46,960 bases of DNA from a bacterium (GTDB lineage Bacteria > Lernaellota > Lernaellaia > JACKCT01): contig JAIOHV010000206.1 of NCBI GenBank assembly GCA_019912885.1, positions 1 through 46,960 on the forward strand, read 5' to 3'. The notes beneath the pieces are model-generated. The model made no database searches. It was not told the origin of the DNA and saw only the letters and a list, made by a program, of their open reading frames with translations. This document shows, piece by piece, positions 2,606-46,960 of this stretch. Both the position numbers and the translations under genes were made by a program. Every line of letters begins with the position of its first letter. Positions within the stretch are counted from its first letter, which is position 1.

Positions 2606-4708
2606 TCAGTCCTTCAGCGCGAGCCACCGTTTCAGCCAGCCGAGCACCTCGGCATACCACACCTGCGCGTTCGCGGGCTGCATCACCCAGTGGCCCTCGT
2701 CGGGGAAATACAGCAGGCGGCTTGGCACGTCCATCGTTTGCAGCGCGGTGAACAGGCCAAAGCCCTCGGAGGTCGGACAGCGGTAGTCCTTCTCGCCGTG
2801 AATGACGAGCGTCGGCGTCTTGAAGTTCGCGACGTGCATGTGCGGCGAGTTCTTCACGAACGCGGCGCGCTTTTCGTGCGGCAGGCCGCCGTGCTCGTGT
2901 TCGTCGAACCACAGTTCGTCGGTCGTGTACGCCATCGTCTCGGCGAAGAAAACGCCGTCGTGCGATACCAGCGCCTGGAAGCGGTCCGAGTGGCCGAGGA
3001 TCCAGTTCACCATGTATCCGCCAAAACTCGCGCCCGCGGCGCCGAGGCGTTTCTTGTCGATGAAATCGTACGTCGCAAGGATGTGATCGACGCCCTTCAT
3101 GATGTCGTCGTAGCAGCGCCCGCCCCAGTCGCCGGAGATCTGGTCGGTGAACTTCTGCCCGTAACCCGTCGAGCCGCGCGGATTGACGAACGCGACCACC
3201 GCGCCGGTTGACGCGAACATCTGCGCGTTCCAGCGATAGTGCCAGTTGTCGCAGAACGCGCTCTGCGGCCCGCCGTGGATGAGGAGGATCAACGGATATT
3301 TCCTGCGCGCCGAGAAGCGCGGCGGGCGGATGAGGAAACCGTGCACCGGCGTGCCGCCCGCGCCCGCGTACCAGAACGGCTCGGCATCGTTCATCTCCAC
3401 GTTTTTCACCGCATCGGCATACCGCGTGAGGCGCACCGCCGACGCGCCCGCGTCGCGCGGAAGATTTTCCGGGGCCGGCGCGGATTTCAAAAACGGCTTG
3501 ATCCCCGCGCCCGGGCCGATCGCGTAAAAATCCGCGGGGCTCGTCGAGGTTTCGCGCGCGGCGAAAAGCATGTCCGTGTTCGGAAACGCGCGCACGAAGG
3601 TGTTGTAGGTGTCGAGCGTGAGTTGCGTGATCGTCTCGGTCGCCGGATCCATGCGGTAGATCGTCATGTAGCCGCGGTCGCACGCGAGAAAGACGATCGA
3701 CTCCTCGCCGTCCTCGTCGTACGTCACGAGGAACGCGCACGGGGCGCGGTCGAACTTTTCGGCGAGCGTTTGCGTCTGCCCGGTCCTGGGATCGTACACG
3801 CGGATGCGCGCGCGGTCGGCTTCGTAGCCCGGCACCTCCATGCCCATGTAGTAGAGCCGGCCGTCGCGGGCGAAGCGCGGATGAACGTCCGCGGCGGCGG
3901 ACACGGAGACGCAAGTCATGTCGCCTTTGCGTTTGCCGTTTTCGAGCGGCAGCAGAAAGATCGAGTTGTTCGTCGTCCGCGCGACGACGCGATCCGGATT
4001 CATCGAAAACGCGAGCGTCTTGCCGTCGGGCGAAATATCGAAATCGCGGTCGGTGCAAACAGCCGTGGGCGGCGCGTCGATATCCTCGCCGTCGAACAGG
4101 TCGTGCGACTTTTCGGTGCGCGTGTCCACGACGAACACGTGTTGCCGGGTGCGTTCGCTGAAGTGATCCCAGTGGCGAAACAGCAGGCCGTCATAGATGC
4201 GCGCGCTCGACTTTTCGTTCGGAAGGCCGAAAACCTTCGCGCTCGCGGGCGATTTGTTTTCCTCGCGTTTCTTGTCTTTTTTCGGATCGTAATCGGGCGA
4301 CACGATCGCGGAACGCACAAACGCGACGCGGCGGTTGTCGGGAAACCAAACGGGTGTCGAGACGCCGCCGTACCCGCTCGTGACGCGGCGCGCCTCTCCG
4401 CCTTTGGTCGGCAAAACCCAGAGCTGGCATCCGGTATCGTCGCGGTCGGAGGCAAAGGCGAGCTTCGTGCCGTCGGGCGACCACGCCGGCGCGCTGTGCG
4501 AACCGGGGCCGGGCGTCAGAAGGCGCGAGCGGCGCGACTTCACATCGAGCAGGTGGATCTTCGATTTCGATTTGTTGGTTTTCGCGTCGAGCGTCGTCAC
4601 GGTGTAGGCTACGTGCCGCCCGTCCGGCGAGATCGCCGGTGCGCCGATGCGGTCGATGCCGATCAGATCGTCGAAGGTGAGTGCTTTGATGCGTCGCGAT
4701 TTGGCCAT
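2606..4708 (-). CDS. S9 family prolyl oligopeptidase / acylaminoacyl-peptidase
   Basis: A 700-residue serine peptidase of the S9 (prolyl oligopeptidase) family. Residues 1-430 form the beta-propeller, with repeated SPDG motifs near 28, 78 and 227. Residues about 445-700 form the alpha/beta-hydrolase domain. The nucleophile is Ser561 in GASFGGY. The likely Asp is 641 (HGEKDYRCP) and the likely His is 673 (FPDEGHW). The oxyanion-side motif HGGPQ is at about 478. Length and architecture match bacterial S9C enzymes that remove dipeptides or N-acyl amino acids from peptides. No signal peptide is seen, so it is likely cytoplasmic. The start ATG at 4708 gives the typical N-terminus (ALTFDDLIGIDRIGAP). 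Its upstream region is occupied by a 36-bp tandem repeat. Confidence 0.93.
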   Translation of the reverse strand: MAKSRRIKALTFDDLIGIDRIGAPAISPDGRHVAYTVTTLDAKTNKSKSKIHLLDVKSRRSRLLTPGPGSHSAPAWSPDGTKLAFASDRDDTGCQLWVLPTKGGEARRVTSGYGGVSTPVWFPDNRRVAFVRSAIVSPDYDPKKDKKREENKSPASAKVFGLPNEKSSARIYDGLLFRHWDHFSERTRQHVFVVDTRTEKSHDLFDGEDIDAPPTAVCTDRDFDISPDGKTLAFSMNPDRVVARTTNNSIFLLPLENGKRKGDMTCVSVSAAADVHPRFARDGRLYYMGMEVPGYEADRARIRVYDPRTGQTQTLAEKFDRAPCAFLVTYDEDGEESIVFLACDRGYMTIYRMDPATETITQLTLDTYNTFVRAFPNTDMLFAARETSTSPADFYAIGPGAGIKPFLKSAPAPENLPRDAGASAVRLTRYADAVKNVEMNDAEPFWYAGAGGTPVHGFLIRPPRFSARRKYPLILLIHGGPQSAFCDNWHYRWNAQMFASTGAVVAFVNPRGSTGYGQKFTDQISGDWGGRCYDDIMKGVDHILATYDFIDKKRLGAAGASFGGYMVNWILGHSDRFQALVSHDGVFFAETMAYTTDELWFDEHEHGGLPHEKRAAFVKNSPHMHVANFKTPTLVIHGEKDYRCPTSEGFGLFTALQTMDVPSRLLYFPDEGHWVMQPANAQVWYAEVLGWLKRWLALKD

Positions 4709-4730: not shown

Positions 4731-4870
4731 GAGTCCCGCTCCCTGACGGTCGCGGTTCGTTCCCTCGAGTCCCGCTTCCTGACGGTCGCGGTTCGTTCCC
4801 TTGAGACCCGCTCCCTGACGGTCGCGGTTCGTTCCCTCGAGACCCGCTCCCTGACGGTCGCGGTTCGTTA
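4731..4870. repeat. 36-bp tandem repeat, about 3.9 copies
   Basis: Four head-to-tail units begin at 4731, 4767, 4803 and 4839. The first three are 36 bases and the last is truncated at about 32. The unit has the form GAGWCCCGCTYCCTGACGG followed by TCGCGGTTCGTTCCCTY. Copies differ at only a few positions. The last copy runs into the TAA stop of the histidine kinase gene (TAACGAACCGCGACC on the minus strand). The core CCGCT-CCTGACG-CGCGGTTC resembles the dispersed CCGCTTGCTGAC..GCGGCTC unit at 13179, 38226 and 40010. There are no spacers, so this is not CRISPR. Confidence 0.93.
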
Positions 4871-7711
4871 GGTCGTTTCCGTCGGGGCGCCGCGTGTCTG
4901 GCGCGACATGACGCGCGTCACGGCCGCGACGATGTCCTCCAGGCGGAACGGCTTGCGCACGATGTCATCGAATCCGTAATCGCGGTAGTTGGCGAGTACG
5001 GGGTCGGTCGAATAACCCGACGACACGATCGCCCGGGCCTGCGGGTGAAACGCGCGCAGCTTTTCGATCGCCTCGACGCCGCCCATTCCGCCGGCGATCG
5101 TCAGGTCGACGATGACGACGTCGTACGGCACGCCCGCGCCGGTCGCGTCGCGATACATCTTCAGCATCTCGCCGCCTTCGCGGGCGATGTTCACCTTGTA
5201 TCCCGCGTGCGCGAGAAGCGCGCGGCCGATGTCGGCCACGAGGCGTTCGTCGTCCATCAGCAGGATGCGTCCCTCGCCGGGCGCGGCCGTATGCGGCGGC
5301 AGCGGCTCATCCTCGGGCATGCCTTCCTCGCCCGCGAGAAGATAGATGTGAAACGTGGTGCCGACGTCCCGTTCGGAATCGACGCTGATGTATCCGCCGT
5401 GCCGCGTGATGATCGAATAACAGATCGAAAGCCCAAGGCCGGTGCCGTGCGTTTTCGTGGAGAAATACGGATCGAAGATGCGCGGCAGCACCTCGTCGGG
5501 AATGCCCGGGCCTTCGTCCTTGATGGAGATCTTCACGTACGGGGCGTCGCGCAGCGGAAACATCGCCTTGGCCGGCGGAAGGTTCGCCGCGTGCACGCGC
5601 AGCATGCCGCCCGCGTCCATCGCCTGCACGGCGTTCAGGGCGATGTTGTGCAGCACCTGGCCGATTTGCCCGGCGTCGATGACGACCGATTTCAGGTCTT
5701 CCTTGATCTCGTAAACGCACCCGATCGCCGATCCGGACAGCGCGAAGTCGATCGTCTCGCGTAGTACGGCCTCGATGCGCGTGGCGCGCTTGATCGGCGC
5801 GCCGCCCTTGGCGAAGGTGAGGAGCTGGTGCGTCAGGTCCTGCGCGCGCATGGCGGCCTTTTCCGCCTCGATGAGGCGCTCGGCGACCTTCTCGCCGCGC
5901 GGCGCGAGTGCGCGGGCCAGCGACACATTGCCGAGCACGCCGGTCAGCAGATTGTTGAAGTCGTGCGCGATGCCGCCGGCGAGCTGGCCGAGGGATTCGA
6001 GCTTCTGCGTGCGGATCAACTCCTCTTCCGCGCGCTTTTTGGCGGTGACGTCGCGGCCGATGATCTGAAACTCGCCGCTGGCCAGGGCGCGCGCACTGCC
6101 TTCCATCAGCACCGGTTCGCCGCTGTGCTTCCAGACACGCAACTCGCCGGCGATCGAGTGGCCGGCCAAAAGCTCGTCGATGCGATCTTTCAGTTCGGGC
6201 GCTTCGCCCGCCTCAATCAGGTCGGAGACGTGCATTCGCCGGAATTCGCCGCGCGAATATCCGAGCAGCTCGCACGCGTGATGGTTCGCCTCGGCGATAC
6301 GCCCCTTGGCGTCGACGAGGAGAATGCATTCCGCCGCCTGCTCGAACAGGGAGCGATAACGCTCCTCGCTTTGCTGAAGAGCCTCGGTGGCAAGGCGCGT
6401 GGCGGTGACGTCAAGAACCGTCATGATACGGCTGTGCGCCTGGCCGTCCCCGGCGCCAAGCGGCGTGGCGACGACAAGAACGTCGCGCACGGCGCCGCGC
6501 CGGCCGTGCAGCCGCATCTCCGCCGTCGTCGTTGCCGCGCCCGCGACACCCGGCGCGAGCGGCGCGTTGTCATTCCCGTCGGACTCCGCGAAATCGAAGA
6601 TCGTTTGCCCGGACAGTTCCGCGTCGTGCTCGATCTCGAGCATTCCCCGCATCGCGGGGTTGACGTAGATGGTGAATCCCTCCGGATCGACGTGCCAGAT
6701 GCCCATGGGGCTGGCCTCGGCCAACGCGCGGTATCGCTCCTCGCTGTGCGCGAGCGCCGCCTCGCCGAGTTTGCGTTCCATGGCTGTCGCGAGGATGTTC
6801 GCCACTGAGCGGAGAAAAGACGCGTCGGTATCCTTGTACAGGCGCCGCTTCTTCGCGTAAGCGCCAAGAGTCCCGAACGGCTGCATTCGCCCCGGGATGG
6901 CCGTCGCGATGCCGCTTTTCGCGCCGCTGGCAAGAAGGAGCCCGGAGGCGCGGAAGCGTTCGTCCGACACGAGGTTTTCGATGATGACCGGCTCCGAGCG
7001 CGCCATCGCGTAGGCCGCGAGCGACGGGAGTTCGGCGTCGATCGAATGCAAGCCGCCTTCGGCGGGCAGCGCCTGCTCGCCGAAGCCATGCGACGCCACA
7101 AGCCGCATGGAACGCCCGTCGGGCATCAGTTCGAGCACGCCCGCCACGTCGGCGCCGAGGCGCTCGCAAACGCTCGTGAGGGCCGCTTCGAACATTCGCT
7201 CCACGGACGTCCCGGCGAGCGCGAGGCGCCCGAGATCCGCCACGGCGCGTTGCTGATCGAAGCGCGCGTCGCGCTCGGATTCCGCGGCGCGCTCGTCGGT
7301 GCGCTCCTCGATCAGTTCCAGGATGCCGGTCCGGCGGCCGTTTCCGTCATAGAGCGCGCGGGCCCGTACGAAAAGGACACGTTCGCCGCGGCCGTCGCGC
7401 GGAACGGGAACCTCCGCGGACAGGCGTCCATTGTGACTGACAACACGAAACGGCAGCCTGTCGACGGCGTCGTGATCGCCCATACGCACGAGGTCCGCAA
7501 ACGTGATCGAGGCTACCGACGCGTACGGAACAAGGTGACCATGATCGCTCGTGCCCAGGACACGGCTTTCCGGGATGCCGGTGAGCCGTGTCATTTCGAT
7601 ATTCCATGCCGCGACCTTCCCGGCGTCGGTCAGGACGTACGCGGCGAAAGGCAAGGCGTTGACAATGGCGCCCGGAGTCGGGGAATCGGTCGATGTCGAT
7701 GGAGACGGCAT
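4868..7711 (-). CDS. Hybrid sensor histidine kinase (PAS-GAF-PAS-PAS-HisKA-HATPase-REC)
   Basis: About 947 residues from the ATG at 7711. A GTG at 7768 in the same frame would add 19 residues. Domains in order: PAS (about 15-135), GAF (about 165-320), two more PAS domains (about 330-450 and 455-575), HisKA with phospho-acceptor His in LAGGIAHDFNN, HATPase with N-box NAVQAM and G-boxes DEGPGIP and THGTGLGLS, then a C-terminal receiver with Asp in VIVDLT and Lys in VRKPFR. There are no transmembrane segments or signal peptide, so it is a soluble sensor. The PAS and GAF domains suggest a small-molecule or redox cue, but no cofactor residues are clear. No separate response regulator is adjacent. 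It is divergent from the gene at 7781 with about 70 bases between, so the two likely share a control region. Confidence 0.93.
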   Translation of the reverse strand: MPSPSTSTDSPTPGAIVNALPFAAYVLTDAGKVAAWNIEMTRLTGIPESRVLGTSDHGHLVPYASVASITFADLVRMGDHDAVDRLPFRVVSHNGRLSAEVPVPRDGRGERVLFVRARALYDGNGRRTGILELIEERTDERAAESERDARFDQQRAVADLGRLALAGTSVERMFEAALTSVCERLGADVAGVLELMPDGRSMRLVASHGFGEQALPAEGGLHSIDAELPSLAAYAMARSEPVIIENLVSDERFRASGLLLASGAKSGIATAIPGRMQPFGTLGAYAKKRRLYKDTDASFLRSVANILATAMERKLGEAALAHSEERYRALAEASPMGIWHVDPEGFTIYVNPAMRGMLEIEHDAELSGQTIFDFAESDGNDNAPLAPGVAGAATTTAEMRLHGRRGAVRDVLVVATPLGAGDGQAHSRIMTVLDVTATRLATEALQQSEERYRSLFEQAAECILLVDAKGRIAEANHHACELLGYSRGEFRRMHVSDLIEAGEAPELKDRIDELLAGHSIAGELRVWKHSGEPVLMEGSARALASGEFQIIGRDVTAKKRAEEELIRTQKLESLGQLAGGIAHDFNNLLTGVLGNVSLARALAPRGEKVAERLIEAEKAAMRAQDLTHQLLTFAKGGAPIKRATRIEAVLRETIDFALSGSAIGCVYEIKEDLKSVVIDAGQIGQVLHNIALNAVQAMDAGGMLRVHAANLPPAKAMFPLRDAPYVKISIKDEGPGIPDEVLPRIFDPYFSTKTHGTGLGLSICYSIITRHGGYISVDSERDVGTTFHIYLLAGEEGMPEDEPLPPHTAAPGEGRILLMDDERLVADIGRALLAHAGYKVNIAREGGEMLKMYRDATGAGVPYDVVIVDLTIAGGMGGVEAIEKLRAFHPQARAIVSSGYSTDPVLANYRDYGFDDIVRKPFRLEDIVAAVTRVMSRQTRGAPTETT

Positions 7712-7780: not shown

Positions 7781-8356
7781 ATGAAACGCGCATTACGACG
7801 CGGCACGGTTCGATGGGGCGGGGCGGCGATCGTCCTGGCAGCGGCGCTCATGATTCCGGCCGCCGCCGGCGCTCAGGATTTCGGCATCGGTATCGTACTG
7901 GGCGTGCCGACCGGCCTGACGTTCAAGGCGATGCTCGACGACTCGAGTGCGATCGACGCGGACCTCGCGTTTGATTTTCTGGACGGATTATTTTTGTTTA
8001 CCGGCGATTATCTTTATCACTTTTCGGACATGGCGCCCGCATCGGACGTCGTGGACATCCGCTTTTATCTTGGCGGTGGCGGCGTGATCGGCGTGGATGC
8101 CGACGAAGACGAGGACGATCCGCCGTGGGACGACGACGATGACGATCATCCGCGCCGCCGCGGCGATGACGACGACTGGGACGATGACGACGACGCCGAC
8201 GACCTCGGGCTCGGCGTTCGCTTCACCGGCGGCGTCAGCTTCATGTTCCAGAAGGTGCCGATCGAACTGTTCGCCGACATCTCGCCGGGCATGTGGGTTT
8301 ACCCCGAGACGGACTTCATGCTGATGGCGGTGCTCGGCGCGAGATGGTTTTTCTAG
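7781..8356 (+). CDS. Small outer-membrane protein with poly-Asp insertion
   Basis: A 191-residue exported protein. CGGAGG lies 7-8 bases before the ATG. The signal peptide is about residues 1-30 (ending AAAGAQD). The mature part looks like a small beta-barrel (GIGIVLGVPTGLTFKAML, VDIRFYLGGGGVIGV, LGVRFTGGVSFMF) and ends in aromatic ARWFF, as outer-membrane barrels often do. Between two predicted strands lies an acidic loop of about 35 residues rich in Asp, Trp and Arg (DEDEDDPPWDDDDDD, then RRRGDDDDWDDDDD). Such a loop would face outside and could bind divalent cations. It may belong to the wider group of small beta-barrels of unknown function. It is divergent from the sensor kinase and convergent with hslU. 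Confidence 0.75.
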   Translation: MKRALRRGTVRWGGAAIVLAAALMIPAAAGAQDFGIGIVLGVPTGLTFKAMLDDSSAIDADLAFDFLDGLFLFTGDYLYHFSDMAPASDVVDIRFYLGGGGVIGVDADEDEDDPPWDDDDDDHPRRRGDDDDWDDDDDADDLGLGVRFTGGVSFMFQKVPIELFADISPGMWVYPETDFMLMAVLGARWFF

Positions 8357-8360
8357 TGAC

Positions 8361-8420
8361 GAGTGACGAGTGACGAATGCATCACGCGCGCCCCTGCGTG
8401 ACATTCGACACTCGACACTC
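8361..8420. repeat. Long imperfect hairpin between convergent genes (GAGTGACGA words)
   Basis: Left arm 8361-8379 (GAGTGACGAGTGACGAATG) and right arm 8402-8420 (CATTCGACACTCGACACTC) are inverted copies matching at 17 of 19 positions. An inner stem TCACGC / GCGTGA (8382-8387, 8396-8401) extends the fold. The repeat starts right after the TAG stop of the small outer-membrane gene and lies before the end of hslU, so it may act as a bidirectional terminator or mRNA stabiliser. No T-run follows on either strand. Similar GAGTGACGAATGG words occur at about 11520. Confidence 0.8.
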
Positions 8421-8434
8421 CGCACTCGACAATG

Positions 8435-9946
8435 TCAGAGGATGTAGCGAGACAAATCCTCGTCCTTGGCGATATCGGTCAGGCGCGCGCGGACGTATTC
8501 GCGGTCGATGCGCACGTCTTTCTTGGTGAGGTCCGGCGCGTCGAACGACACCTCGTCGAGCAGGCGCTCGAGGATGGTGTGCAGGCGGCGCGCGCCGATG
8601 TTTTCCGTGCGCGTGTTGACGTCGGTGGCGATGCGCGCCAGCTCCTCGATCGACTCCGGCTGAAAATCGAGCGTGACGCCCTCGGTGGCCAGGAGCGCGA
8701 CGTACTGCTTGATGAGCGCATTTTTCGGCTCGGTCAGGATACGGACGAAATCCGTCTGCGTCAGGCTTTGCAACTCCACGCGGATCGGAAAACGCCCCTG
8801 CAATTCGGGGATGAGGTCGGACGGCTTGCTGACGTTGAACGCGCCCGCGGCGATGAACAGGATGTGATCGGTGCGGATCATGCCGTACTTCGTGGAGACG
8901 GTGCTGCCCTCGATGATCGGCAGCAGGTCGCGCTGCACGCCCTCGCGCGACACGTCCGGCCCGTGGCCCTTTTCGACCGCGCCGATCTTGTCGATTTCAT
9001 CCAGGAAGACGATGCCCGCGTCCTCGACGCGCGCGAGCGCGCCGTTGATGACCTGATCCATGTCGATGAGCTTGGCGGCCTCTTCCGACTCGATGATGTC
9101 CAGGGCCTCGGGCACCAGGACCTTTTTCTTCTTGGTCTTTTTCGGAAACATGTTGCCGAAAAGGTCCTTGAGGTTGATTTCCATGTCCTCCATGCCGCCG
9201 GCGAAAACCTCGACCATCGGCGAGCCCGAGCGGTCCGGAACGCGGATCTCGATCTCCGTTTCGTCGAACTTCCCGTCGCGCAACCACTGGCGCATCTTTT
9301 CGCGCGTGCGCTTGTAGCTTTCGAGCTGCTTTTGATACTCCTCGAGTTCCGGCGGCGCGGCCGTCGAGCCCGCGGGCGTCTCCGCCGGCGTCTCGGGAGC
9401 ATCCGGCTCGGCCGTTTCGCCTTCCTCGCCGCCGGGCTCGCGCGGATCCGCGGGCTTGGGCGTTTTCGGCGGAGGGGGAAGCAGGATGTCGAGCACGCGG
9501 TCTTCCGCGATGTCCGCGGCCTTGTCGGCCACAAGGTCCATCTCCTCGGCCTTCACCATGTTCACGGCAAGTTCGGTGAGATCGCGGATCATCGATTCCA
9601 CGTCGCGCCCGACGTAGCCGACCTCCGTGAACTTGCTGGCCTCGATCTTCAGGAACGGCGCGTTCGCCAGCCGCGCGAGCCGCCGCGCGATCTCCGTTTT
9701 GCCCACGCCGGTCGGCCCGATCATGATGATGTTCTTCGGCGCGATCTCCTCGCGCAATTCCTCGGGCACCTGCTGGCGGCGCCAGCGGTTGCGGAGCGCA
9801 ATCGCCACCGCGCGCTTGGCCTTGTCCTGGCCGATGATGTATTCGTCAAGCTCGGTGACGATCTGGCGCGGCGTGAGTTGCGCCTCGAAGTCGTCGTCGT
9901 AGCCCTCGATCGTTTCGGCGTTTTCGCCGTTATTCTCCGATGCCAT
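8435..9946 (-). CDS. hslU: HslU, ATPase subunit of the HslUV protease
   Basis: A 503-residue AAA+ unfoldase that feeds substrates to the HslV peptidase in the cytoplasm. The N-terminus has the HslU signature ([18 protein letters not shown]). Walker A is GPTGVGKTE at residues 77-85. The pore motif GYVGRD is near 110-115. Walker B and sensor region [12 protein letters not shown] is near 311-322. The C-terminus LSRYIL matches the tail that docks into HslV. The I-domain carries a low-complexity Pro/Glu/Ala-rich stretch at about 156-202 that makes the protein longer than typical HslU (about 440-460). hslV lies 21 bases upstream in the same direction. Confidence 0.97.
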
Positions 9947-21702: not shown

Positions 21703-22245
21703 ATGGCCAAATTTTCCATCACCACCAAACGCGGCGACGAGGGCCTGACGAGCCTGTATTCGGGCGAGCGCGTCCCGAAGGACGATCCGCGCCCGGACAC
21801 CTACGGCGACGTGGACGAGCTCGAAAGCGTCCTTGGCATCGCGCGCCTGCATGCGCGTATGGACTCGACGCGCGAGACATTGCTGTGGCTTCAGCGCTCG
21901 ATGTTCCCGATCAGCTCCGAGATCGCGACGACGGCCAAAAAGCTCGACAAACTGCCCGTGCGCGTGGACGAGGCGTTCGTTGCCGAGATGGACGCTCGCC
22001 GCGACGCGCTCGAGGAACGCATCGAGATGCCCAAGGGCTTTGTCGTCACGGGCGGCACGCTTTGCTCCGCGCATCTGGATCACGCGCGCACGGTCGCGCG
22101 GCGCTGCGAACGCAAGATCACGCGCCTTGTGCGCGACGGTTTGCTCGAAAACCGCCACGTGCTCGTGTGGTTCAACCGCCTCTCCGATTTTCTGTGGCTT
22201 CTCGCGCGCGAAGAGGGCGGCGATCCGACGATGGCAAAAGAGTAA
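21703..22245 (+). CDS. Cob(I)alamin adenosyltransferase (PduO-type ATR)
   Basis: A 180-residue PduO-type ATP:cob(I)alamin adenosyltransferase, which forms adenosylcobalamin. The N-terminal ATP-binding motif TKRGDEGLTSL and the following GDVDELESVLG match the family. The central RRCERKITRL and C-terminal NRLSDFLWLLAR are the other two signatures. Length is normal. A GAAAGG site lies before the ATG. It is probably cytoplasmic, acts in B12 salvage or assimilation, and supplies AdoCbl to mutases outside this window. No other cobalamin gene is adjacent. Confidence 0.95.
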   Translation: MAKFSITTKRGDEGLTSLYSGERVPKDDPRPDTYGDVDELESVLGIARLHARMDSTRETLLWLQRSMFPISSEIATTAKKLDKLPVRVDEAFVAEMDARRDALEERIEMPKGFVVTGGTLCSAHLDHARTVARRCERKITRLVRDGLLENRHVLVWFNRLSDFLWLLAREEGGDPTMAKE

Positions 22246-22277
22246 TTGGGAATTGGGAATTGGGAATGTGGAATGTC
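22246..22277. repeat. GGGAATTGGGAAT word array
   Basis: Repeats of TTGGGAA / TGGAATG starting directly on the TAA stop of the adenosyltransferase. The reverse-complement version (CATTCCGCATTCCAAATTCC) lies at 30350-30382. A partial GGGAATGCGGAATTGG copy lies at about 39934. Confidence 0.85.
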
Positions 22278-22298: not shown

Positions 22299-24908
22299 AT
22301 GAGCGCATCCTCTGAGGCAACCGACGAAAGACGCGCGACGCTCGCGTACGCCGCCGCGCTTGCCGTGATGTGCGCGTTTTGCGTGTCGTGGATCCACGCG
22401 CGCACGGAGTCGCTTGCGTCGGGCAAGGACCGCTACCTCGTCGAGGACGCGGGCATCAGCGTCGTGTTCGCCAAATACATCGCCTCCGGCGAGGGCGCGG
22501 TGTATTACCCGGACGGCGAGCGCGTTGAGGGCTACTCCAACCCGTTATGGACCTTCGCGATCGCGGTCTTCGCGAAGATGGGCGTGGACCCGTTCGACGT
22601 GCCCCGGCCGCTTGGCCTTGCGTCGTCGGGCGTCGCAATGTTCTTCGCGGGCATGCTGTTCTTCTGGACGGTGGGCGGGCGGCTGCGTTTCGCGGGGCTC
22701 GCCATTCCGCCTTTCATCGCCGGCGCGGGCACGGTTGTCATCTGGTCGATCGCGGGCCTCGAGAACGGCCTGTTCGCCGCGACGCTCGTCGGCGCCGTCG
22801 CGTTATTCGCGCGCGAACGGGCCAATCCCGATGCGCGGCCGTTCTCCGGCGTCCTGTTTTTTCTCGCCGCGATCACGCGGCCGGAGGGCGTCGCGTACGG
22901 CGGCCTAGCGGGGCTTTTCGTCATCGCCACGGAAATCGTGCCGCGCCGAAAAATCGAACGCCGGCATATCGTGTTCGCGCTTTCGTTTCTCGCGCCGTAC
23001 GTCGTGTATCAGGCGATCCGCTATGCGTATTTCGCGTGGCCGCTGCCGAACACGTTCTACGGCAAGACCAGCGACGCGAACCTCGACGATCTGACAAACC
23101 TCAAGACGCACGGCTGGAACTACCTGCTCGACTACATCGACGCCTACGGCTACGCGATGGTGTTCGCGCTCGCGGCGATCGCGCCGGTCTGCCGCCGATT
23201 CGGACGCGGGGCGCTGTTCGCGTTCGGCGCGCTTTTGTTCGCATGCTTTTTTCCGGTGTACGCGCGCGGCGACTGGATGGAAGAGTGGCGCTTCTGTTCG
23301 ACCGTCACCTTCCTTCTCGTGCCGCTTGCCGCCATCGGCGCGGCGCGCCTCGGGTCACTTGCGAACCGCGTGGGACCGCCGCTCGATGACGAACCCCCGT
23401 CGCGGCGATGGCGCCGCCTCATCGCCGCCTTCGCCGTCACGCTCGGCGTTTTCGGCGTCGTTCTTTTTCCGCAGTTTCCGGCGACGAGAAAACACCTGAA
23501 CAAGTTCCTGCAAAAACCGATCGTCAACACGTACAAGCTCCAGACGCGCGGCGCGTATTTTCGCGAGATGGCCGACGCGATCGACCTTGTGCCCGGCTCG
23601 ATCCTCGACGTGGACATGGGCGGTATCGGCGCGGCAAGCGGGATGGTGATCTACGACGTGGGCAAGCTCTGCGACGTGCCGTTCGGCATCAACCAGTGGG
23701 ACGAGACGTTCGTCGACGATTACGTCTTTACGGAGACGCGCCCGGATTTCCTGCACGCGCGCGAGGGTTTTGGCCGGGGCAGCCACATCACGACGCACCC
23801 GCGTCTGCTCAAGGACTGGATCCTGCTTCCGCAAGATCGGCGCCTCGGGTGGGAGCGGCCGAACGGCAACTTCGTGCGCAAGGCGCTTGTTCTCGCGCCG
23901 CCGGACGAGGCGACGTTCGACCCGCTGCCCGTGGGCGGCGGCGTGGCGATCGTCAACGCGTCGGCATATCCGAACCCGGTGCGCGCGCGCGACACTGTGC
24001 GTTTTCGCATCGTGTGGCAGGCGATGCAAAAGCCCGCCGGCGATATCGCGGTCGAATACGCGCTCGTCGATCCCGAGGGCGCAACGCGCGCGAGCCAAAA
24101 GCGCCACCTGGCGCAGGATTGGTATCTGACAAGCGAGTGGCATCCCGGCGAGAAGGTCGTCGATCTGGTCAAGATGCGCGTGCCGAAAAGCGTGCCCGAG
24201 GGCGTGTGGTCGCTTGCCGTGCGCGTGCTCGACGAAGATGAGGCCGGCAAGCCGCCGCTCAAGCGGCCCGAACACCGCCGCATCATCGCCCCCGAGCCTG
24301 ATTGGAACGGCGTGCCGACCACGACACAACCGAATTTCGACTCAAACAACGCCGATCCCGATCAATCTTCAATCTTCAATCGTCAATCTTCAATTTCCGA
24401 CGTTCCCGGCGCCTCGTTCGCCGTATCGAAAGACGAAACCGCAACCGCCATCGCCGAGCACATCGCGAGCATTGCCGAACAAACGCGCCGCGATCCGTTC
24501 GTCGCGCGCGAGACGCTGCGTCTGCTAGACACGTACCGGCTGCGTCGCGCGGAAAGAGGGCGGGTTGCCGAGGCGAAAAAGGTGTTTGTCGACGGCGTCG
24601 CGAAGGCCGCGCGCGCGTATCGCGACGCCGGCGACGAGACGCGGGCGGCCGATCTCGTCGTGCTCGCCCGGCGTGTGAATCACCGCGATGCGGTTGTCAT
24701 CGGCGTCGCGCGCGATCTCTCGCGCCTTTCCTACAAGCGCGGCCGCGCGGCGCAAAAGGCGGATCGCCTCGACGAGGCATACGCGGAATATCGCGAAGCC
24801 CTGCGCCGCTCCCCACAAAACGCGTGGGCGCGCCGCCACGCCGAGGAAACGCGCCCGGCGGGCGTGCTGCGCCGAGGCAAGCGCGACCTGCCTTTCGTTG
24901 CGCCGTAG
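22299..24908 (+). CDS. Large GT-C-like polytopic membrane protein with C-terminal soluble region
   Basis: An 869-residue integral membrane protein. Residues 1-400 hold about 9-10 hydrophobic segments. The first periplasmic loop carries DAGISVVFAKYIASGEGAVY and GERVEGYSNPLWT, the loop pattern of GT-C glycosyltransferases similar to arabinosyl- and mannosyltransferase families; the Asp is the likely catalytic base. A soluble part of about 400-720 follows, then a tail of about 720-869 with helical TPR-like segments (ADRLDEAYAEYREALRRSPQNA). Probable role is transfer of a lipid-linked sugar to a surface glycan. The soluble part contains an in-frame repeat array (24361-24398). The start at 22299 has only a weak upstream site. 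Confidence 0.72.
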   Translation: MSASSEATDERRATLAYAAALAVMCAFCVSWIHARTESLASGKDRYLVEDAGISVVFAKYIASGEGAVYYPDGERVEGYSNPLWTFAIAVFAKMGVDPFDVPRPLGLASSGVAMFFAGMLFFWTVGGRLRFAGLAIPPFIAGAGTVVIWSIAGLENGLFAATLVGAVALFARERANPDARPFSGVLFFLAAITRPEGVAYGGLAGLFVIATEIVPRRKIERRHIVFALSFLAPYVVYQAIRYAYFAWPLPNTFYGKTSDANLDDLTNLKTHGWNYLLDYIDAYGYAMVFALAAIAPVCRRFGRGALFAFGALLFACFFPVYARGDWMEEWRFCSTVTFLLVPLAAIGAARLGSLANRVGPPLDDEPPSRRWRRLIAAFAVTLGVFGVVLFPQFPATRKHLNKFLQKPIVNTYKLQTRGAYFREMADAIDLVPGSILDVDMGGIGAASGMVIYDVGKLCDVPFGINQWDETFVDDYVFTETRPDFLHAREGFGRGSHITTHPRLLKDWILLPQDRRLGWERPNGNFVRKALVLAPPDEATFDPLPVGGGVAIVNASAYPNPVRARDTVRFRIVWQAMQKPAGDIAVEYALVDPEGATRASQKRHLAQDWYLTSEWHPGEKVVDLVKMRVPKSVPEGVWSLAVRVLDEDEAGKPPLKRPEHRRIIAPEPDWNGVPTTTQPNFDSNNADPDQSSIFNRQSSISDVPGASFAVSKDETATAIAEHIASIAEQTRRDPFVARETLRLLDTYRLRRAERGRVAEAKKVFVDGVAKAARAYRDAGDETRAADLVVLARRVNHRDAVVIGVARDLSRLSYKRGRAAQKADRLDEAYAEYREALRRSPQNAWARRHAEETRPAGVLRRGKRDLPFVAP
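24361..24398. repeat. CAATCTT word array inside a coding region
   Basis: About five units of TCAATCTTCAA / TCAATCGTCAA lie within the GT-C-like gene. Flanking sequence reads on in frame, so the repeat encodes SIFNRQSSIS. AT content is far above its surroundings. It looks like an intergenic-type word array that landed in the gene. Confidence 0.8.
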
Positions 24909-45753: not shown

Positions 45754-46960
45754 ATGCGCCATCATTCGAACGACCGACCCGCGCGCCATCGTGGTGCGTC
45801 GCCGGCCGGATCCGGGAGCCGCCACGCGGCACTAAGGTCCGTCTCCGTTGCGATGATGCTCGCGCTCGTCCTGCTGTTTGCCGGTCACGCGCAGGCGGCG
45901 ATTCGATCGACGACGGGCACGGTCGTCGACTGGTTTGACGAATACGACAAGGGCGACGATTTCGACATTCCGGTCACGAGCGCGATCGACGGTCCGTGGA
46001 CCAATGGCATCCCCACGAATTATTATTACATGGACAACGCCACGGTTTCCAACGGCGTGTCGCTATACAATATTGAAGGCTTCGACTTTCTGGTCTATTA
46101 CTATTTCGGCGTATCGGGCGGCGTCGTCGAGCGGTTTAATGCCGGCGCATGGAATCTTGAGTCGCTGGCGCCGGACTTCCTGACGTACACCGTTCGCGCC
46201 GCCATCGCGGGCAACGAAGTTTTCGTCAGTGCGGGCGGTATCGACGGCGCCATGGCGCCGAGCGCGAACACCTTTTATCGATACAACATCGCGACAAATA
46301 CCTGGGACACGCGGGCGTCGGTGCCGGGCGGAAAGACGTGGGCGCCGCAGCTCGTTGCGCTCGACGGCTACATCTACATGGTCGGGGGCGGCGACCTTTC
46401 GAGCGGATTCGTGCCGTCAAACCAGTTATTGCGTTACGACCCCATCGGCAACACGTGGCTGGCGCGCGCGAACATGCCGGGTGCGCGCGGGTTTCATTGT
46501 GCGTTTCCGTACAATAGCCAGATCTACGTCGTAGGCGGCTTTGACGGCGCCAGCGCCCTTTCGACGGGATACATCTACAACCCGGGGACAAACACCTGGT
46601 CCGTCGACGCAACGAGCCTGCCCGCGGCTCGTTGGGGCGCGGCTTGCATGGGGTCCGGCGGCGGGGGGGAACGTTTCATCCTCGCGGCCGGCGTTGATTC
46701 GGGCGGATCGCTCGCAGCGAATTCCTATTTCCGGAACGCGGCCGCGGGCGGCGGCTGGTCTGATTTCGGCAACATGTTCCGTCCCGTCTACCGCACCTCG
46801 GGCGCGGTCATCGGTAATACGGCATACGTGGTGCAGGGCGCGGACGGGAATTATCCGTTCTACGCGTTCAACGACATCACGATCGTGCAGAACAGCCCAA
46901 TCCCGACGACCACAACGACGACGACAACGACGACGACCACAACGACGACGACCACAACGA
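45754..46960 (+). CDS. Secreted Kelch-repeat protein with poly-Thr linker (cut by window end)
   Basis: At least 402 codons from the ATG at 45754 (GGGGGGAA upstream); the open frame runs off the end. A long basic N-region precedes the signal segment (MMLALVLLFAGHAQA, about residues 34-48). Kelch-type blades follow: VFVSAGGIDG, FYRYNIATNTW, IYMVGGGDLSS, LLRYDPIGNTW, IYVVGGFDGAS, YIYNPGTNTW. They form a beta-propeller, used for binding. At the end a run of Thr codons (about 46908 on) starts a linker that leads to unseen C-terminal domains. It is probably surface-exposed. An internal ATG at 45853 is a later start. Confidence 0.85.
   Translation, partial: MRHHSNDRPARHRGASPAGSGSRHAALRSVSVAMMLALVLLFAGHAQAAIRSTTGTVVDWFDEYDKGDDFDIPVTSAIDGPWTNGIPTNYYYMDNATVSNGVSLYNIEGFDFLVYYYFGVSGGVVERFNAGAWNLESLAPDFLTYTVRAAIAGNEVFVSAGGIDGAMAPSANTFYRYNIATNTWDTRASVPGGKTWAPQLVALDGYIYMVGGGDLSSGFVPSNQLLRYDPIGNTWLARANMPGARGFHCAFPYNSQIYVVGGFDGASALSTGYIYNPGTNTWSVDATSLPAARWGAACMGSGGGGERFILAAGVDSGGSLAANSYFRNAAAGGGWSDFGNMFRPVYRTSGAVIGNTAYVVQGADGNYPFYAFNDITIVQNSPIPTTTTTTTTTTTTTTTTTT
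46908..46960 (+). repeat. Poly-Thr codon tract (ACG/ACC/ACA)
   Basis: Tandem threonine codons at the C-terminal end of the Kelch protein, running off the window. They encode a low-complexity extracellular linker and are liable to change length. Confidence 0.9.

Follow-up and report, generated by a model that had tools for sequence, protein, structure and literature searches.

A GATTGAA/TTCAATC heptamer array within a lineage-specific insert of a putative glycosyltransferase-like membrane protein

How does an array of short, AT-rich words come to be read as protein in the middle of a large membrane protein gene? The question is raised by positions 24361-24398 of the 46,960-nucleotide stretch of Lernaellota DNA analysed here (the window). 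An initial annotation of this DNA regarded the array as similar in style to intergenic arrays nearby and proposed that such arrays can insert or grow inside genes, adding low-complexity loops.

The array and its host gene

The array lies where it was first reported. Tandem Repeats Finder resolved about 4.7 copies of TCAATCT, with a period of 7, at 24362-24394 on the forward strand (92% matches, score 59), and an imperfect continuation extends as far as 24398; the reverse strand reads GATTGAA. Uninterrupted period-7 sequence reaches at most 20 bp, at 24362-24381. The 11-mer word first proposed for the array, TCAATCTTCAA, has to be replaced by this 7-bp unit, of which it spans roughly 1.5 copies. 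The array is in frame with an open reading frame (ORF) of 869 aa (22299-24908, + strand), in which it encodes approximately the peptide QSSIFNRQSSIS. It is read through with no frame change, as had been claimed: the frame is correct on both flanks, and the orthologue from G001, another genus of the same family, aligns at 46% identity in one single frame from query residue 10 to 856. Open frames and homology together indicate that the array is probably translated.

The host ORF encodes a membrane protein that is putatively glycosyltransferase-like. Its initial description as GT-C-like is plausible, not established: NCBIfam linked the protein, below threshold, to NF047440, a family of putative glycosyltransferases (LA_3751/LA_3752; E = 2.7e-5; 23.2 bits, with the cut-off at 200). 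A Pfam search returned no GT-C family, and its one hit, a TPR repeat close to the C-terminus, was likewise below threshold. At E ≤ 0.1, the host-protein alignment had no match among solved structures. The protein appears to comprise a helical N-terminal part, a β domain, a linker that contains the array and a C-terminal helical (TPR-like) part. A structure model placed strands at residues ~549-644, coil at 645-714 and helices at ~715-850, after the helical N-terminal part; the model is poor (mean pLDDT 45.8) and served only as weak support for the coil. The proposal that the array adds a low-complexity loop fits this predicted coil between two domains.

The likeness to the intergenic arrays of the window extends to the period of 7 and not to the word. 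Two other exact period-7 arrays occur in the window, AGTGACG at 8355 and AATTGGG at 22244; the word of the host-gene array is absent from both, yet recurs elsewhere in the genome. The AATTGGG array (22244-22267, + strand) begins on the stop codon of the upstream gene 21703-22245 and is of the usual gene-border kind. The AGTGACG array (8355-8376) forms a noncoding inverted pair, unstranded, with a GACACTC array (8400-8431), and 3 bp separate this pair (8355-8431) from the minus-strand gene 8435-9946, on the side of its stop codon.

A genome-wide family of heptamer arrays at gene borders

We searched the whole genome, G000 (4,816,049 bp in 230 contigs), for the word. The 18-mer TCAATCTTCAATCTTCAA occurs 17 times, against 0 for the reversed control, and is absent from the 59 other genomes among the 60 searched, 6 of which belong to the same family or class. 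The 13-mer GATTGAAGATTGA gave 44 matches (control 0), which make up 30 strict arrays. Alignment of the insert around the host-gene array against the genome gave 59 matches, one being the site itself; all the others but two touch the array part, and leaving out those two and merging overlaps yields 54 arrays. The GATTGAA/TTCAATC arrays thus share with known heptamer families a tandem 7-bp unit in many copies across the genome. The period itself stands out in 310,709 bp made up of the window and further stretches, several of them selected for holding the word: exact period-7 arrays with at least 12 matching positions number 26, compared with 1 in a Markov-resampled copy, and 22 of the 26 are below 50% GC. 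Other periods from 4 to 15 reach at most 14 arrays each, with periods 6, 9, 12 and 15 never below 50% GC.

The two strands of the word differ in coding potential. (GATTGAA)n contains TGA in all three frames, while (TTCAATC)n or (TCAATCT)n can be read through in each of them as SIFNLQS, and therefore a single orientation can code and the opposite one terminates a gene. Of the 30 strict arrays, 12 overlap a stop codon when read in the GATTGAA sense, 7 start 1-19 bp past one, 4 lie in ORFs and 7 lie elsewhere; the gene calls came from a home-made codon-score finder, whose errors these counts share. Arrays at a stop codon or up to 19 bp after one thus make up 19/30, against 6.1% for random intergenic placement. 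The 12 overlaps are partly self-made, since a frame that enters the array must stop there; the 7 arrays that follow a stop, unlike the overlaps, are not. Arrays of other words keep to this polarity: in 21 of 25 noncoding ones, as counted by hand, the purine-rich strand is directed away from the gene (p = 0.0009). The family is accordingly mostly noncoding, near ORF ends and of fixed strand polarity, and the array in the host gene is an exception.

Arrays of the family also tend to pair. Among the 54 arrays, neighbours less than 400 bp apart form 14 inward-facing inverted pairs and one outward pair, with none in the same orientation (p = 0.001), and the arrays of ten of the 14 inverted pairs are 77-110 bp apart. 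The lone outward pair is the 1-bp junction of a tandem duplication on contig C30, where an intergenic unit flanked by inverted GATTGAA/TTCAATC arrays (L070, 9746-10080) is duplicated head to tail. The array in the host gene is unpaired: no inverted partner was found inside the gene (score 7; 95% of the null at 8). Homology between the cores enclosed by paired arms was considered and rejected, the cores being mostly unrelated. Arm-to-arm matching at a finer level was likewise no better within pairs of the GATTGAA family than between loci (swapped partners did equally well in 12.8% of cases; 12 of the 14 pairs used), so the arms match by word only.

Inverted words at the two edges of an intergenic region are found beyond this one family. 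Edges matched in 16 of 164 intergenic regions of G000 (9.8%), in a sample partly selected for array hits, against 1.5% with swapped partners, and at several of these loci the words differ from GATTGAA. In the G000 stretches selected without an 18-mer hit, a subset that includes the window and with it the host-gene hit, the count was 3/49. The same comparison gave 6/73 (8.2%) in G002 against 0.1% for swapped partners, and was weak elsewhere (2/71 in G001, 1/58 in G003 and 1/57 in G004). A 9-mer, TTGCGATTC, often adjoins the inner edge of the right-hand array in intergenic regions of G000; in a 431-kb sample it has 20 noncoding and 5 coding occurrences (0.33 versus 0.013 per kb). Separately, an inverted element, CCTGAGCGAAGCGAAGGATC / GATCCTTCGCTTCGCTCAGG, recurs between genes in G000 (L058, 9439-9745; L107, 4688-4994), and a similar element is present in G001 (L047, 6002-6145). 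A text search of the literature for four intergenic words returned nothing related.

Heptamer arrays near gene ends are already known from several bacterial groups, and regulator binding or quadruplexes have been offered as reasons. In the portions of the report available to us, Geobacter metallireducens is described as carrying tandem hepta- and octanucleotide 'global regulator binding sites', multi-copy and paired on opposite strands at variable distance, with a heptanucleotide element that lies both inside and between genes; the roles proposed are those of IHF/HU sites or regulatory RNAs (PMC2700814). The arrays of G000 resemble these in their 7-8 bp tandem words, opposite-strand pairs, multiple copies and occasional position within genes. 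They differ in word and lineage; overlap with stop codons is unmentioned in those portions. In Xanthomonas and Nostoc, the heptamers GGGAATC and GGGGA(C/T)T are, according to excerpts of their description, dispersed genome-wide and mostly noncoding near ORF ends; they closely follow stops on the coding strand, in some cases with an overlap, and precede starts on the noncoding strand, and they form G-quadruplexes (PMC4692102). The arrays here are similarly dispersed, mostly noncoding and close to ORF ends; GATTGAA lacks a run of three G, and the positional habit in G000 therefore cannot rest on quadruplexes. An AT-rich word with this habit suggests that quadruplex formation is unnecessary for it.

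A parallel in strand asymmetry is the TAACTGA direct repeat of Beggiatoaceae and others, which, as far as the excerpted account goes, has stops in all frames one way and is open the other way, overlaps gene ends, and lies in its open orientation inside ORFs, mostly at protein ends (PMC4679880). The G000 family shares the stop/open asymmetry of a heptamer, the overlap with gene ends and the open orientation in ORFs. Its word is different, GATTGAA / TTCAATC, and whereas TAACTGA forms direct repeats mostly just upstream of starts, the G000 arrays mostly follow stops, often as inverted pairs. Borg tandem repeats, in the part of the report seen, occur between and inside genes and add flexible protein segments (PMC9879509), as the arrays of G000 appear to do; in-gene Borg units are there multiples of three and nearly all unique, unlike the unit of 7 with one word genome-wide in G000. 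We place the GATTGAA family among heptamer arrays of the known kind, with the host gene as a clear case of insertion.

The lineage-specific insert and its likely origin

The initial annotation had held that a repeat-less orthologue that keeps the peptide would speak against its proposal. The array peptide is absent from two family relatives and from six myxobacterial homologues, the latter aligned out of nine loci found. Between a conserved EG and a conserved VSK, 74 residues occur in G000 and about 26-27 in the G001 and G002 sequences, a net excess of ~48 residues (a count made by eye on the translations). Frameshifts interrupt the G002 homologue in its assembly, and it was compared in pieces only; at C12:659-3072 it is split over several frames, owing to sequencing errors or decay. 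The segment specific to this lineage corresponds to about 24249-24410 on the + strand (residues ~651-704), limits that are approximate, being read against distant relatives. Its codon score is -0.003, against 0.379 elsewhere in the gene, the lowest of all 54-codon windows in the host gene. GC content is 57%, compared with 67% elsewhere in the gene. Absence of the peptide from homologues, noncoding-like codon use and GC content together place the array within a noncoding-like, lineage-specific insert, of which it makes up about a quarter (~12 of ~48 residues net).

We consider it likely that the host-gene array is a family heptamer array brought into the interdomain linker together with ~144 bp of noncoding-like DNA. 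Because the array lies within a stretch that the relatives lack, noncoding repeat DNA is probably now part of the protein, and because all homologues examined lack the segment, insertion rather than loss would account for the difference. The starting material would have been GATTGAA/TTCAATC arrays, mostly noncoding and flush against gene ends, one of which would have entered, within ~144 bp (net) of such DNA, the linker between the β domain and the C-terminal helical domain. The insert could be tolerated because it adds, net, a whole number of codons to a permissive linker, and because TTCAATC on the coding strand contains no stop codon whichever frame is read. Tandem duplication or slippage in steps of 7 bp probably makes the arrays longer, and the protein probably functions unchanged apart from its longer flexible loop. 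That arrays come to lie in genes, as first proposed, is borne out by the absence of the segment from relatives and by other translated arrays; insertion or growth by the array itself is not demonstrated. Against our reading, the array is only about a quarter of the insert, and the arrival of the remainder is unaccounted for.

The whole insert could instead be a mobile element that carried the array in frame, of the Rickettsia-palindromic-element (RPE) or MITE kind, which we regard as unlikely. The net size of ~144 bp would be fitting, as would the frequent inverted pairing at 77-110 bp; the RPEs, in the available text of the report, are repeat DNA of ~150 bp known to insert in frame in protein genes (PMC10969869), similar in size and placement to the present insert. 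RPEs are, however, families of related whole elements, whereas in G000 the array part alone is repeated and the remainder of the insert is unique: the alignment search found no convincing second copy of it in the genome outside the array part, weak matches aside. Terminal inverted repeats or a palindrome are also lacking, given that the array has no inverted partner in the gene, and the predicted RNA fold of the insert is ordinary, no better than shuffles (z = 0.21). The mostly unrelated cores of paired arrays weigh against this alternative too. Mobility of a whole element is thus unsupported by both the genome search of the insert and the search for an inverted partner.

A phase-variation switch, in which the C-terminal domain would be switched off and on by frame changes whenever one 7-bp unit is gained or lost, seems less probable still. 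Seven is no multiple of three, and one of the alternative frames stops 54 codons past the start of the array, at 24526; the other runs to 25088. Against such a switch, only 20 bp of the array is perfect and the remainder is interrupted, which slows slippage, and most arrays of this word are noncoding.

Low-complexity linkers are present in prokaryotic proteins, and the segment might be ordinary coding sequence, a Ser/Gln/Asn linker repetitive by chance. We hold this to be very improbable: the word is identical to that of dozens of noncoding arrays with no control matches, the codon use is noncoding-like and every homologue examined lacks the segment. Misassembly at a repeat is equally improbable; the genome is metagenome-derived, in 230 contigs, and assemblers can be misled by repeats, but the perfect run of 20 bp is short relative to a read, the conserved protein sequence is in frame on both flanks and similar translated arrays occur in other genes.

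Translated arrays in other genes

All four strict arrays inside called ORFs (of 30) carry TTCAATC on the coding strand. The alignment search and further stretches added two more arrays of this sense within ORFs, and four of the resulting six cases were set against relatives: the host gene and those on contigs C126, C106 and C70. Two further ORF overlaps, on C193 and C151, are in the GATTGAA sense. In four genes other than the host, comparison with relatives puts the array peptide at a changed gene border: the linker of an ABC fusion, two N-termini and one C-terminal tail.

The ABC fusion on C126 is a single 797-aa ORF with ABC_tran and ABC2_membrane domains, whereas the ATPase and the permease are in separate frames in G001, G003 and G004. 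Its linker ends in array sequence (NLQSSIFNL) where the permease of the relatives starts; this start is MRSRI in G001 and G003, and in C126 the array runs into LRSRI. The same ORF bears a CTCAATC array in an N-terminal extension. On C106, a phosphomethylpyrimidine kinase has the N-terminus MRVNPQSSIFNLQ ahead of the part that aligns with relatives, which begins at query residue 21-31; in a second alignment, the G003 match begins at residue 3, at 32% identity. On C70, C6 and C102, the array lies just past the start and is followed by a hydrophobic stretch that, by eye, resembles a signal peptide, and relatives of the C70 protein match only from query residue 24-37. In-frame N-terminal arrays of this signal-peptide-like kind number three, at L142 4001-4029, L146 4005-4040 and L072 8366-8396. 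Finally, a lipid A acyltransferase-like protein on C203 ends in the array sequence KIEDRKSKIED, beyond its conserved end.

Translated arrays in G000 thus apparently include an interdomain insert, a gene fusion, N-termini (three before signal-peptide-like stretches) and a C-terminal tail, and its noncoding arrays show the known positional habit with an AT-rich word free of G-runs, in inverted pairs. Our best guess is that the noncoding arrays are gene-border DNA shaped by tandem duplication; possibly they have a role at RNA ends or as candidate protein-binding sites. More speculatively, and with considerable doubt, a general, word-independent process might, in unrelated bacteria, flank intergenic regions on either side with inverted 7-bp arrays that match each other and directly abut the stop and start codons, and genes that run into such borders might gain termini, signal-peptide n-regions, linkers and fusions. 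If so, the quadruplex explanation for the Xanthomonas and Nostoc heptamers would be incidental. With sister genomes, the origin of the arrays and the reshaping of gene borders become testable.

Two tandem repeats of other periods were seen in the window. A GC-rich repeat at 4731-4869 (36-bp unit, 3.9 copies, 95% matches) lies in the gap between the minus-strand genes 2606-4708 and 4868-7654; a GACCGTGAGGGAGCGG stretch, similar to it by eye, occurs in the N-terminal extension of the ABC fusion (L058, ~14270). At 46904-46960, four copies of a period-15 repeat, CGACGACCACAACGA, run off the end of the contig.
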